Assembly: GCA_020851375.1 (NCBI GenBank)
Contig: JADZCV010000046.1
Coordinates: 1-59,494 of the forward strand
Direction of reading: 5' to 3'
Source of the DNA: Nitrospirota bacterium
Lineage (GTDB): Bacteria; Nitrospirota; 9FT-COMBO-42-15; HDB-SIOI813
DNA length: 59,494 nucleotides
Shown here: positions 38,631 through 43,342 of the stretch, piece after piece
Numbering within the stretch: position 1 is the first letter of the stretch
How the letters are laid out: each line of letters opens with the position of its first letter
Notes under the pieces: generated by a model
What the model was told of the DNA's origin: nothing
The model's database searches: none
The model's input: only the letters and a program-made list of their open reading frames with translations
Program-made: the position numbers and the translations under genes

Positions 38631-38989
38631 ATAACAGGGCAAAGGGCAGGGATGGCGAGTTACTGGCAGAAGAGTACCTTGCGATAAGCGGGTATGATAT
38701 CATTGCGAGGAATTACAGAAACCGTTTTGGTGAGATTGACCTTATTGCACGGGAAGGTAATACCCTCGTTTTTATTGAAGTAAAGACAAGGAATAACTAT
38801 AAACATGGCCTGCCTGCAGACGCTGTTGATGAGAGGAAACAACGCAGGCTTGGGAGAGTGGCGCTATCTTATATTGCCAGTGAGGGAATAAATAATCAGC
38901 CGTGCCGTTTTGACGTATTGTCTATAATCGAGAACAGGGTAGAGTTGCTAAAGGATGCTTTTATCCTTCCGGAAGGCAGCATATGGTAA
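38618..38989 (+). CDS. yraN: YraN family (UPF0102) nuclease-like protein
   Basis: The 123-residue protein has the YraN pattern: GRDGELLAEEYL, then NRFGEIDLIAREGNTLVFIEVKTR. The E..(D)...(E-V-K) arrangement is a PD-(D/E)XK-type nuclease core related to Holliday junction resolvases. Biochemical activity is not well established. It overlaps the end of rnhB by 13 bp, the conserved neighbour. Confidence 0.92.
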   Translation: MSRLNNRAKGRDGELLAEEYLAISGYDIIARNYRNRFGEIDLIAREGNTLVFIEVKTRNNYKHGLPADAVDERKQRRLGRVALSYIASEGINNQPCRFDVLSIIENRVELLKDAFILPEGSIW

Positions 38990-39234
38990 CCGGTGTAAAC
39001 AGTGATGTAAATTATAACGGAAAGGTATATCACGTTCAGACGGAAGATGGCGGTATTAATAATCCAATGATACTGACCAGGATATATTGCTGCGGGGTTC
39101 TCATTACGAGCAGAAAGACAAGTTATGTCTATTTGCTCGAGATGGAAGGATTCAGGGATGTTGTGGAAAGACTGATGAAGGAACAGCACAATGAAATGAT
39201 TCAGGAGATTCAGAGTGGCAGGATGGCAAGGTGA
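38983..39234 (+). CDS. Conserved small protein of unknown function between yraN and ftsE
   Basis: The 83-residue soluble protein contains NYNGKVYHVQTEDGG, NNPMILTRIYCCG and a helical C-terminus (MEGFRDVVERLMKEQHNEM). No signal peptide or membrane helix is present. I remember similar small proteins with a YHVQTED motif from deltaproteobacteria and Nitrospirota, but know no function for them. It overlaps yraN by 7 bp and ftsE by 4 bp, so it is certainly in this operon. A role linked to division is only a guess. Confidence 0.75.
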   Translation: MVTGVNSDVNYNGKVYHVQTEDGGINNPMILTRIYCCGVLITSRKTSYVYLLEMEGFRDVVERLMKEQHNEMIQEIQSGRMAR

Positions 39235-39866
39235 TACAGTTTCGCAATATAACAAAATCGTACAGAGGTATACCGGTAATTAAGGATTTTACCTGTTCCG
39301 TTGAAAAAGGAGAATTTGCATTTATTTGCGGGCCTACAGGTTCCGGCAAGAGTACCCTGCTGAAACTGCTTATGTGTATAGAAAAATGCGATTCGGGTTC
39401 CGTCATGTTTATGGACGAAGATCTCACCACAGTAAAGGAGTCACGTATCCCCTTTATTAGAAGGAGCATAGGATTTATTTTTCAGGATGGAAGACTCCTG
39501 TCCAATAAGAACGTATTTGAAAATATTGCGCTTGTGCTGAAGGTCTGCGGCCACAATAAAAAGGAGATTGATTACAGGGTAAGTGAAGCCCTGAGGCTTG
39601 TCGGGATGAGTGATAAGATTTACTCATATCCATACAGCCTATCGGGAGGGGAATTGCAGAAGGTAGCTGCAGCAAGGGCTATTGTAAATGATCCAGTACT
39701 ATTGCTGGCAGATGAGCCTGCAGGCAGCCTTGATGCAGATAGTTCTCTTGAGATATACAACATCTTTAATAAAATTAATAGTACGGGTACGACAGTTATA
39801 GTTGCCACGCATAACCTGGGAACAGCCGAAAAGACAGGAAAACGGATAATCAGATTGACCCAATAA
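39231..39866 (+). CDS. ftsE: Cell division ATP-binding protein FtsE
   Basis: FtsE is the cytoplasmic ATPase that drives FtsX to activate septal wall hydrolases. Walker A GPTGSGKST (about 34-42), ABC signature LSGGELQK, Walker B LLLADEPAG and the H-loop ATHN are all present in 211 residues. The start is GTG 39231, overlapping the previous stop. It lies 19 bp before the ftsX-envC fusion. Confidence 0.94.
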   Translation: MIQFRNITKSYRGIPVIKDFTCSVEKGEFAFICGPTGSGKSTLLKLLMCIEKCDSGSVMFMDEDLTTVKESRIPFIRRSIGFIFQDGRLLSNKNVFENIALVLKVCGHNKKEIDYRVSEALRLVGMSDKIYSYPYSLSGGELQKVAAARAIVNDPVLLLADEPAGSLDADSSLEIYNIFNKINSTGTTVIVATHNLGTAEKTGKRIIRLTQ

Positions 39867-39885: not shown

Positions 39886-41940
39886 ATGCTTTTATACAGC
39901 ATCCAGGAAGCAATAAAACAGATCAGATCCAACAAATACACTACCATATCAGCCGCCGGTATAATTTCAATAATCCTTCTGGTATTCGGACTATTTCTCC
40001 TGTCAATTCATAATCTGAATATTTTTGCAGATACACTGAAGAGTGATATGGAGGTAGTGGCATTTTCTTCGGGAAATGAGACAGATGAACATCTCATGGA
40101 CGTCAAGTCTGAAATTGGGAAGATGCATGAGACGGAGGCTGTTGTTTTTATCTCAAAAGATGATGCTATTGGCATGTTTGCGAGGGATCTGACCAGTTTT
40201 CAGGGCGTCATTAAAGGCTTGAAGGATAATCCTTTGCCTGATGCATTCAGGATAAAATTAGTTCCTGATTCCAGAAACCCGGATGCCATGCGCAATTTTT
40301 CTGAGAAGTTGAGGAGGATTAACGGTATTGATGATGTTGAATATGGCAAGGAATGGGTGGAAAGGCTGAATGCACTTGTAACCGTATTGAGGGTGCTGAG
40401 CCTTATTGTCGGTGGAATAATGCTTCTGCTGGTATTGTTTATCGTTTCTAATGTTATAAAGCTGACATTCCTGATGAGACGGGATGAGATTGAGATAATG
40501 CAGCTTGCAGGAGCTACGAGGCTTTTTATCAGGATACCATATATTGTTGAGGGGGGTATATTGGGGTTGATTAGCGCAGGTAGTTCTGTAGTCATATTAT
40601 ACGGTATTTACAGGATTATAATCTATAAGATTCCGTCAACTGTGTACGTGTGGCTTGGTGGTCTTGAATTCAGTTTTATTTCATTAATGGGAGTCATTTC
40701 AATTCTAATCACTGGTGTTATCGTGGGCTGCTTTGGGAGCTGGACATCAATAGGGAGGCTGACGGGTATAGCTTTATTTTTGATTTTATGTTTAAATATT
40801 ACCCATATACATGAGGTTGAGGGTAAGGAGGTTCAGGTAATTGAGAAAGAGATAGAACAGAGCCAGAAGAAGTTGCTTGATGTAGATAAAAAGATTAAGG
40901 AAAGGAAAAAAGCCACTAAAAAGGCGGTTGAAGAAGAAAAGAGGGTTAAAAGCAAGCTTCAAAGTAAGGAAATAAACCTGGGAAGCAAAAAGCAGGAGCT
41001 TAAAAAGGTAAGCAGGGATATTATAAAGAAAAAGGAGGAGATCATGACTGTGCACGAAAATGTAGAGTCATTGTCTTCTGATCTGGACAGAAAAAAAATG
41101 GAATTATCCGGAGTTGTCAAGGAGATTTATAAGTCATACATGTGGAGGCACAGCGGTTCTGCGGAGCTTCTATTGTCATCTGCCGACTATAATGATTATA
41201 AGATACGGTTAAAATATCAGGATAGTCTGATTGGTGAGGCCAACCGAATAATGACAAGCCTGAATGATGACATAGGAGAGCTGAACAGCAGGTTGTCATC
41301 ATTAAACCGGAGACACCAGAATCTCATGCTTGCAAAGGGTAACATTGTTCAAGACAAGGCGACCATTGAACGTGATATCAGACAGGACAAACAGCAGCTT
41401 GTCGGCATTCAAAGGAAAAAGGCAGAGTATGAAGAAGAAATACGGCGTCTTACATCTGCGTCAGCAGCCCTCAAAAAACTTATTTCATCATACGAAAAGG
41501 AGCGCAGCCATGATCTGCCTGTTGCAGGGACCGGTTTTGGCAGGAGTAAGGGGCAGTTGACATGGCCTCTTGAGGGAGATGTCATATCCTCATTTGGCCG
41601 GCAGAGGCATCCGGAGTTTGATGCATATGTTTTTAAGAAGGGTATAGAGATTGCTGCCAGGGGCTCAAGGGATATCAGGGCTGCATTTGACGGTGTTGTA
41701 GCGTATGCAGACTGGCTTCAGGGCTATGGGCTCACACTTATAATTGATCATGGAAACAGTTATTATTCAATTTACGGACATGCATCAAAGATTAATGTTT
41801 CAAGAGGCGGAAAAGTGAAGAAAGGACAGATTGTGGCTGTTGCCGGAAGAGGTAATAATGCAGGCAGAGATGGCATATACTTTGAACTCAGGCATCAGGG
41901 AGAGGTTATAGACCCTATTGCCTGGCTTGCAAAAGGGTGA
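39886..41940 (+). CDS. ftsX: FtsX-EnvC fusion protein: FtsX permease joined to a murein hydrolase activator
   Basis: Residues 1-290 form a complete FtsX: helix 1 (about 19-42), large periplasmic loop (about 43-165), three more helices ending near 284, and the usual cytoplasmic end. The frame runs on through a fifth hydrophobic segment (about 295-308, like a signal peptide). A coiled coil follows (about 318-560), then a LytM domain (about 570-684). That domain carries ADWLQGYGL and YFELRHQGEVIDP, which match E. coli EnvC. Its zinc ligands are degenerate (KKGIE instead of HxGxD; no HxH), as in EnvC, so it should activate amidases, not cut wall. FtsX and EnvC are normally separate proteins. No stop or frameshift is visible at the junction. 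Confidence 0.9.
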   Translation: MLLYSIQEAIKQIRSNKYTTISAAGIISIILLVFGLFLLSIHNLNIFADTLKSDMEVVAFSSGNETDEHLMDVKSEIGKMHETEAVVFISKDDAIGMFARDLTSFQGVIKGLKDNPLPDAFRIKLVPDSRNPDAMRNFSEKLRRINGIDDVEYGKEWVERLNALVTVLRVLSLIVGGIMLLLVLFIVSNVIKLTFLMRRDEIEIMQLAGATRLFIRIPYIVEGGILGLISAGSSVVILYGIYRIIIYKIPSTVYVWLGGLEFSFISLMGVISILITGVIVGCFGSWTSIGRLTGIALFLILCLNITHIHEVEGKEVQVIEKEIEQSQKKLLDVDKKIKERKKATKKAVEEEKRVKSKLQSKEINLGSKKQELKKVSRDIIKKKEEIMTVHENVESLSSDLDRKKMELSGVVKEIYKSYMWRHSGSAELLLSSADYNDYKIRLKYQDSLIGEANRIMTSLNDDIGELNSRLSSLNRRHQNLMLAKGNIVQDKATIERDIRQDKQQLVGIQRKKAEYEEEIRRLTSASAALKKLISSYEKERSHDLPVAGTGFGRSKGQLTWPLEGDVISSFGRQRHPEFDAYVFKKGIEIAARGSRDIRAAFDGVVAYADWLQGYGLTLIIDHGNSYYSIYGHASKINVSRGGKVKKGQIVAVAGRGNNAGRDGIYFELRHQGEVIDPIAWLAKG
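40752..40770 (+). promoter_or_regulatory. Internal Shine-Dalgarno at the FtsX-EnvC junction
   Basis: AGGGAGG (40752-40758) is followed 9 nt later by an in-frame ATA (40768-40770) that opens the EnvC signal-like segment. A TTG at 40780 is the next possible start. This looks like a relic or working start site of a separate envC. Confidence 0.45.
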
Positions 41941-41965: not shown

Positions 41966-43342
41966 ATGTCAATGAAAAAGCAGAGGGTGAGAACAGGGGT
42001 TGTCGTATTATTGTTTCTACTCCTGGCCGGTGTGTGGGTAATATTCGGGAAGGGCTTCGGGAACCCTGTATTCGGTGGTGAGAGCTATGAAAATCTCAGG
42101 GTCTTTGCAGAGGCGCTGTCGCTTGTAGAAAAAAACTATGTAGATGAAACGAAGACAAAGGACCTTGTTTACGGGGCAATCAAGGGAATGCTTTCAGAAC
42201 TTGACCCTCATACCAGTTTTATGTCGCCTGAAAGTTACAAGGAAATGCAGGTTGATACCAAGGGGGAATTTGGCGGATTAGGCATACAGATAGGTATGAA
42301 AGACAAGAAACTTGTAGTCATTGCACCAATTGAAGACACCCCTGCATGGCGGGCCGGTATCAAAGCAGGCGATCATATTTTCAAGATAGATGACACTGTA
42401 ACAAAGGATCTTGATATGGAAGATGCCGTCAATAAGATGCGGGGTCCGAAGGATACAAAGGTAAAACTGACAATCGTGAGGGAGGGCGAGAAAGAACCGC
42501 TTGAATTTACTATCGTAAGGGACATTATCAAGATAAAGAGCATTAAACACAAGGTAATTGAGGGGGATATCGGTTATGTGCGAATTACTCAATTTCAGGA
42601 GCGTACGGGAGAAGATCTGAGAAAGGCTCTTGACGACCTTGATAAACAGAAAATCAAGTCACTCATCATAGATATGAGGAACAATCCAGGAGGATTGCTG
42701 AAGGTGGCAATCCAGGTTTCTGAATTGTTTCTCAGGGAAGGTAAGCTTGTTGTCTCTGTAAAAGGCAGGAATGACGAGAAGGAAGAATATCTGGCCTCTG
42801 AAGCACATGCCAGGGAAGATTATCCTATTGTTGTGCTTGTTAATGAGGGGAGTGCAAGCGCTTCAGAAATTGTTGCCGGCGCTCTTCAGGATTGGGGAAG
42901 GGCTGTTGTGTTAGGGACTCAGACGTTCGGCAAGGGGTCTGTTCAGACAGTGTTTACGCTAAGTGATGGTTCCGGGATGAGGCTTACTACAGCAAAGTAT
43001 TATACGCCAAAGGGTATATCCATTCAGAATACTGGAATCACTCCGAACATTGTAGTCAAGCCGGCATCAGGGCGTGATGAAGCGGATGGCAAATTTATCA
43101 GGGAAAAAGACCTGAAAAAGCACCTGAAGAATGAGATGATTGATGAAGATTTGGATAGTGGAGCGAAACCTTCAGACAAAGACAGGGGAAGTGGTAATGG
43201 TGATAATGTAACTGAACAACCTCAGGAAGGTGATATTGAAAAGCAGGATTATCAGCTGCAAAGGGCTGTGGATTTATTAAAAGGCTGGAATATTTTTAAA
43301 GGAATTGCGCCTTCAGAAACGCAGGCAAAATCTGCCAGATAG
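41966..43342 (+). CDS. ctpA: S41 family C-terminal processing peptidase (CtpA-like)
   Basis: This periplasmic serine protease is anchored by one N-terminal helix (about 10-30). It has a PDZ domain (GLGIQIGMKDKKLVVIAPIE, about 100-180) and an S41 core with catalytic Ser in NEGSASASEIVAGAL and Lys in FGKGSVQTV. A charged tail ends the protein. I start it at ATG 41966, which has GGGAGG 9 nt upstream; an in-frame TTG at 41918 lies inside ftsX-envC. CtpA proteases elsewhere control murein hydrolases, which fits the neighbours. Confidence 0.92.
   Translation: MSMKKQRVRTGVVVLLFLLLAGVWVIFGKGFGNPVFGGESYENLRVFAEALSLVEKNYVDETKTKDLVYGAIKGMLSELDPHTSFMSPESYKEMQVDTKGEFGGLGIQIGMKDKKLVVIAPIEDTPAWRAGIKAGDHIFKIDDTVTKDLDMEDAVNKMRGPKDTKVKLTIVREGEKEPLEFTIVRDIIKIKSIKHKVIEGDIGYVRITQFQERTGEDLRKALDDLDKQKIKSLIIDMRNNPGGLLKVAIQVSELFLREGKLVVSVKGRNDEKEEYLASEAHAREDYPIVVLVNEGSASASEIVAGALQDWGRAVVLGTQTFGKGSVQTVFTLSDGSGMRLTTAKYYTPKGISIQNTGITPNIVVKPASGRDEADGKFIREKDLKKHLKNEMIDEDLDSGAKPSDKDRGSGNGDNVTEQPQEGDIEKQDYQLQRAVDLLKGWNIFKGIAPSETQAKSAR

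Follow-up and report, generated by a model that had tools for sequence, protein, structure and literature searches.

The window analysed here, a stretch of 59,494 nucleotides from a Nitrospirota bacterium, encodes FtsX and EnvC in a single open frame of 684 codons (684 amino acids; 39886-41940, forward strand), with neither a stop nor a frameshift between the two halves. FtsEX-EnvC is a model for an ABC-type machine governing wall cutting at division, and the natural fusion of both halves in every class member sampled suggests that they are made together and act as one unit. The joint has the anatomy of a signal peptide, and we consider that the fusion is probably a polyprotein, cut by signal peptidase I and then operating as a canonical FtsEX-EnvC-amidase system.

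Domain composition and gene neighbourhood

The features of the fused frame and its neighbours are as follows.

39231-39866 (+): ftsE, the ATPase partner, directly 5' of the fusion (NCBIfam FtsE TIGR02673, 2e-72)
39886-40758 (+): FtsX part, residues 1-291, with four predicted transmembrane (TM) helices, a periplasmic domain (56-151) and a putatively cytoplasmic C-terminal end in GR (FtsX_Gneg match at 3-291; FtsX_ECD; Foldseek match of a low-confidence model to solved FtsX; same end as in unfused relatives)
40759-40797 (+): joint, codons 292-304, the hydrophobic core of a putative internal signal peptide (LTGIALFLILCLN) and a nucleotide-constrained stretch (codon alignment of 10 genomes; column shuffles; GC3 minimum of the gene; one match per genome)
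40798-40824 (+): c-region of the putative signal peptide, residues 305-313 (column 311 = 40816-40818; Ala in 8 of 10 genomes, Val in the window copy)
40819-41514 (+): EnvC coiled-coil hairpin and restraining-arm region, comprising predicted helix I (312-419), helix II (435-543) and, between them, a linker containing a six-residue helix (AlphaFold2 model, mean pLDDT 86; alignment to E. coli EnvC; PDB profile match)
41551-41934 (+): EnvC-type LytM (M23) domain, residues 556-683, with replaced zinc ligands K584, E588 and Y665 (Pfam M23; TM-score against 4bh5; comparison with an intact M23 protein)
41966-43342 (+), frame open from 41918: next gene, a ctpA-type C-terminal processing protease (Pfam S41 and PDZ; downstream in 10 of 10 class members)

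The FtsX part adjoins ftsE and is matched by Pfam FtsX_ECD at residues 56-151 (6e-12, above the cut-off), by Pfam FtsX at 174-292 slightly below the cut-off (3e-5), and by NCBIfam FtsX_Gneg TIGR00439 at 3-291 (profile positions 2-289 of 292; 4e-65). The last match reaches 220 bits against an equivalog cut-off of 255, which is passed by only 22 of 296 genomes of the phylum, the window FtsX falling below it like most of the others. The EnvC portion (about residues 312-684) is complete, comprising the coiled-coil hairpin and a degenerate LytM domain. Pfam Peptidase_M23 matches residues 583-677 (3e-24), and NCBIfam EnvC matches only residues 472-683 (4e-33, 115 bits against a cut-off of 270); since this score lies below the equivalog cut-off, the C-terminal half is called EnvC-like by its fold and gene context, and equivalogy is not claimed. 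In profile searches both halves match solved FtsX and EnvC chains, EnvC residues 37-381 of 8tzk being aligned to profile positions 331-688.

The motif ADWLQGYGL is identical in E. coli EnvC, and the stretch YFELRHQGEVIDP of the fusion corresponds to YFEIRRQGQAVNP in the E. coli protein. K584, E588 and Y665 occupy the positions of the zinc ligands, whereas the HTGVD...HLH residues are intact in the other M23 protein of the genome. The assignment of the C-terminal half to the EnvC type, with a pseudo-enzyme LytM domain, is supported. An earlier note on this DNA had read the frame in the same way, as FtsX continuing without interruption into an EnvC with degenerate zinc ligands, and both parts of that description are borne out.

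In each of the ten class members (L001-L010) the CtpA-type protease gene comes directly after the frame that encodes EnvC, which suggests a link between EnvC and the protease. On the other side of the cluster, just 5' of ftsE, a small unnamed gene linked to ftsE encodes 83 amino acids (38983-39231, forward strand) and has no Pfam match; its product shows 67-74% identity in seven other class genomes and 35-44% in G038, G040 and G016.

Distribution and origin of the fusion

A comparison of 61 related genomes gave a single stop-free match in every genome of the window's family, which is the whole class as sampled. The fused frame is intact in ten of the ten class genomes examined, which belong to six genera and, with the query itself left out, show 50-76% identity. 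The presence of the same frame in all ten rules out an assembly or indel error at 40750-40790. The earlier note had allowed that all close relatives might have separate genes; the class relatives are in fact fused, and it is the more distant Nitrospirota that mostly have ftsX and envC as separate, adjacent genes. A contig scan matched only a member of the class, Nitrospirae bacterium RIFCSPLOW2_12_42_9, and the plasmid collection returned only the LytM end of separate EnvC and no FtsX-EnvC fusion.

Elsewhere in the phylum (296 genomes, the genera without a listed match having been run again), FtsX is found mostly in ordinary frames of about 300-350 codons among the matches listed. The longer stop-to-stop FtsX frames that were checked are upstream extensions, except for two further FtsX-EnvC fusions, in G240 (731-codon frame) and G138 (746-codon frame), each represented by one genome. 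In a tree of FtsX and EnvC the fused state requires at least three changes on well-supported branches, and G138 clusters with G254, a genome of the same genus with separate genes. By parsimony this would correspond to three gains, although one gain and two losses cost equally many changes. The two genes are adjacent or overlapping in other families, and in G038 and G040, from two of these families, they share a frame and are separated by a single stop, which shows the ease with which such a fusion can arise.

Some variation in FtsX itself was also observed. Thirty of the 296 Nitrospirota genomes, many of them in families f2 and f10 (e.g. G010, G019, G026, G034), gave no FtsX_Gneg match at 1e-20 and have a divergent or missing FtsX. 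Within the class, the FtsX of L008 (G003) is some two dozen residues shorter between TM2 and TM3 (window residues 193-216 approximately), the stretch holding the FtsE-coupling helix, by either loss or assembly error. In genus g6 (L005 = G009 and L010 = G007) the coupling-helix region is altered, and an insert, a partial repeat of the GR(Y) motif that is Gly-rich in L010, lies between the end of FtsX and the signal core.

The joint as a putative internal signal peptide

In unfused relatives a Sec signal peptide opens EnvC, at or beyond the end of FtsX. In the fusions the end of FtsX (GR) passes directly into a hydrophobic core, about 12 residues long, and then into a short polar c-region, so that Arg/Lys 291, the core and the c-region follow one another in the order of a signal peptide, and the whole can be aligned to the cleavable signal peptides that EnvC carries in unfused relatives. 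The signal-like hydrophobic segment that had been pointed out at the joint is this core (292-304). With the C-terminal end of FtsX predicted to lie in the cytoplasm, a signal would be needed after it for the export of EnvC.

The -3/-1 rule of signal peptidase, as summarised in PMC9360617, was applied to the c-region. Column 311 is Ala, with a small or permitted residue at -3, in eight of the ten class genomes, and the neighbouring c-region residues vary. The window copy and one congener have Val at this column, and their sole rule-obeying sites, VEG/K (window, after 40824) and VES/R, score negative on a small PWM; sites of that quality arise by chance in 55% of 10-residue coiled-coil stretches. 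On the same PWM, which was built on a set of 30 from E. coli and gives only indicative scores, the Ala-311 site is low in several class members (about -3.3 to 4), and the separately placed fusions end in signal peptidase-like sites, one strong (QVKA/EE in G240, 9.7) and one weak (LSEA/KK, -0.05). The genome encodes signal peptidase I (LepB). The core residues G, A, L, L, C, L and N are invariant in the class, a conservation not usually expected of a peptide destined for removal and degradation. A lipoprotein signal peptide was considered and rejected, as Leu and not G/A/S precedes the invariant Cys302 in all ten genomes, leaving no lipobox.

Predicted structure and geometry

The full-length fusion was modelled poorly (pLDDT 62), with a helix predicted at 290-303 and FtsX helices compatible with four TM segments and a cytoplasmic C-terminal end. 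The EnvC half, modelled with AlphaFold2 from 39 sequences, is predicted with greater confidence (mean pLDDT 86) to form helices at 312-419, 426-431 and 435-543 followed by the LytM domain, that is, the EnvC hairpin with its short linker helix. The LytM domain superimposes on that of E. coli EnvC (4bh5) with a target-normalised TM-score of 0.91. The best structural matches of the whole half are 8tzl and 6tpi, the global TM-scores being low (0.34-0.40) for the flexible coil.

In the solved E. coli complexes two FtsX periplasmic domains hold one EnvC (PMC7668044; PMC11139282), and the FtsX grip is on the hairpin tip, residues 114-128 and 141-160 of an EnvC whose mature form begins at 35 (PMC7668044). 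EnvC requires its N-terminal heptads for activation, and in the active state these are predicted to pair with the restraining arm (PMC12505981). An uncut 1:1 tether would place two EnvC on each FtsX dimer, against one in the solved complexes. Moreover, helix I has 108 residues in the model, approximately 16 nm at 1.5 Å per residue, and because the predicted fold puts the EnvC N-terminus at the hairpin end lying that far from FtsX, an N-terminus held at the membrane would orient the hairpin wrongly with respect to its own FtsX. By analogy with the homologues, both stoichiometry and geometry favour cleavage. Were the chain to remain uncut, at least one of the two, the accepted 2:1 assembly or the placement of the EnvC N-terminus, would have to be wrong.

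These considerations, together with the resemblance of the joint to a cleavable signal peptide, make doubtful the part of the earlier interpretation in which a lasting covalent fusion fixes pairing and stoichiometry and puts EnvC on a fifth TM segment. What stands of that interpretation is the frame, the EnvC identity, the pseudo-enzyme LytM domain and the signal-like joint; what is not supported is the persistence of the link between the mature proteins.

Proposed processing of the fusion

In the mechanism that we favour, FtsX would be integrated into the membrane, its C-terminal end facing the cytoplasm, and the conserved Arg/Lys of that end together with the hydrophobic residues 292-304 would act as an internal Sec signal peptide, exporting the remainder of the chain to the periplasm. 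Signal peptidase I would then cleave after approximately residue 311-313, yielding FtsX in its usual four-TM form and EnvC free in the periplasm, in equal numbers from one translation event. ATP binding by FtsE would shift the FtsX periplasmic domains and twist the EnvC hairpin, the LytM domain would be freed, and this domain would activate the AMIN-Amidase_3 enzyme. We infer both the cleavage and the function of the products. An AMIN-Amidase_3 protein is encoded in the genome, and Amidase_3 is found in nine of the ten class members; the single Amidase_3 of the genome (G000 C44, 82095-82727, L093), which has the AMIN domain, is likely to be the sole client of the activator.

Nucleotide constraint at the joint

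Codons 292-304 (13 codons) are the most synonymously conserved and the most AU-ending stretch of the gene, and this constraint is a separate question from that of cleavage. When six representatives, one per genus, were compared, synonymous codon identity over the 12 codons from residue 295 onward was 0.50 above expectation, as compared with 0.31 for the best other window of the gene in the same genome set (0.35 with another set), 0.26 for the best in CtpA and 0.21 in FtsE. None of 5000 column-order shuffles reached the excess at the joint, and 300 codon permutations peaked at 0.29. GC3 falls to 0.14-0.18 at the joint against 0.43 gene-wide, and 6% of its Ile, Val, Leu, Phe and Ala codons end in G or C, as opposed to 32-46% in TM1-4. 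Where EnvC is unfused, its signal peptide shows no such drop in mean GC3, although three members of family f3 do show one; on the tree this family neighbours f1, a weakly supported placement. A consensus pattern of these codons finds a single match in each genome. Selection for A/U-ending codons would leave only A-T changes allowed and would thereby account for much of the synonymous conservation.

Several candidate elements were sought at the joint. RNAalifold gave a consensus of -0.84 kcal/mol without meaningful covariation, and thus no conserved RNA hairpin; no Rfam family matched; and the promoter and terminator scan listed no site at the joint, its counts being unremarkable beside those of shuffles. 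Resemblance to a dif site is poor, and at the setting used the canonical dif pattern was not convincing in the class or in most of the phylum. A programmed frameshift was rejected, there being no slippery site common to all ten genomes (T TTG GGG is absent in several), as were a repeat or mobile element, given the one match per genome, and overlapping coding in other frames, since the positions of the changes in the codon alignment do not fit it.

Alternative readings of the fused frame

Cleavage by signal peptidase heads the readings considered. Less likely, and next in order, is a chain that remains uncut, in which 292-304 and its flanks form a fifth TM segment and each EnvC is permanently tethered to its own FtsX, giving a complex of two FtsE and two FtsX-EnvC with either a changed geometry or EnvC docked on the neighbouring FtsX. 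The sequence of the hydrophobic segment is kept, including the invariant Cys and Asn, the fused frame is maintained class-wide, and the window's own species has a degenerate cleavage site, VEG/K, whose weakness makes a tether conceivable there. However, the core (predicted helix 290-303) is rather short to span the membrane as a TM helix, Ala at the signal peptidase column is retained in eight of ten genomes, and a tether clashes both with the ratio of one EnvC to two FtsX and with where the N-terminus of EnvC lies. An assembly or sequencing error that joined two neighbouring genes has almost no probability left: adjacent or overlapping ftsX and envC in other families, and the same frame with one stop in G038 and G040, would lend themselves to such an error, but a frame open in ten genomes of six genera refutes it for the class, and only the single-genome fusions of G138 and G240 could still be explained in this way.

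It is improbable that the fused frame is used only in part, with an internal EnvC start carried by the constrained joint or a recoding event that ends FtsX early, so that separate FtsX and/or EnvC would be made beside the fusion and the 2:1 ratio reached. Codon 293 is TTG or ATG in six of the ten genomes, TAG and TAA in the +1 frame are conserved in all ten, and the synonymous excess, the low GC3 and the uniqueness of the stretch in each genome fit such a signal. Against it, the start codon is not conserved, including in the window's genus, and the three genus-g1 genomes have no NTG at 293; the Shine-Dalgarno-like Gly codon varies; neither a conserved slippery heptamer nor an RNA structure or Rfam match was found; and wobble conservation extends over every codon of the stretch, beyond the stops. 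Should more than one product arise through the constrained joint, by internal initiation or recoding, or should the chain stay uncut in the window's genus, which taken together we regard as rather unlikely, FtsEX would have a covalently built-in activator and the FtsX:EnvC ratio would be set at translation instead of by separate genes.

Comparison with known systems

In the earlier note this fusion was taken not to be a known architecture, in agreement with our searches of the open literature (FtsX/EnvC fusion, domain architecture, Nitrospirae/Nitrospirota), which found none, and with a text search of a 2024 FtsEX review, in which no mention of an FtsX-EnvC fusion was found. A system with similar parts is the FtsEX-EnvC-AmiA/B pathway of septal peptidoglycan hydrolysis in E. 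coli, Vibrio cholerae and Pseudomonas aeruginosa (PDB 6tpi, 8hd0, 8i6o, 8tzl), with which the genome analysed here shares FtsE, the FtsX periplasmic domain, the EnvC coiled coil with its hairpin linker helix, the degenerate LytM domain and an Amidase_3. It differs in that E. coli envC lies far from ftsEX, whereas the window has one frame with a putative internal signal peptide. Other Nitrospirota with separate, adjacent ftsX and envC have the same gene order and families, and the joint of the window corresponds to their EnvC signal peptide; they differ in the stop and the separate start between the two genes. The Gram-positive FtsEX partners PcsB, RipC and CwlO are likewise coiled-coil effectors of wall hydrolysis run by FtsEX, but they carry other enzymatic domains and are separately encoded as described.

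A parallel in layout is the cytochrome b/c1 polyprotein (fbcH) of Bradyrhizobium japonicum, in which a polytopic membrane protein, a signal peptide and an exported protein are encoded in one frame and the product is cut into two subunits of one complex. The proteins are unrelated to FtsX and EnvC, and cleavage is experimental in fbcH and predicted here; if the FtsX-EnvC chain is cut, it would likewise be a natural bacterial polyprotein processed by signal peptidase.
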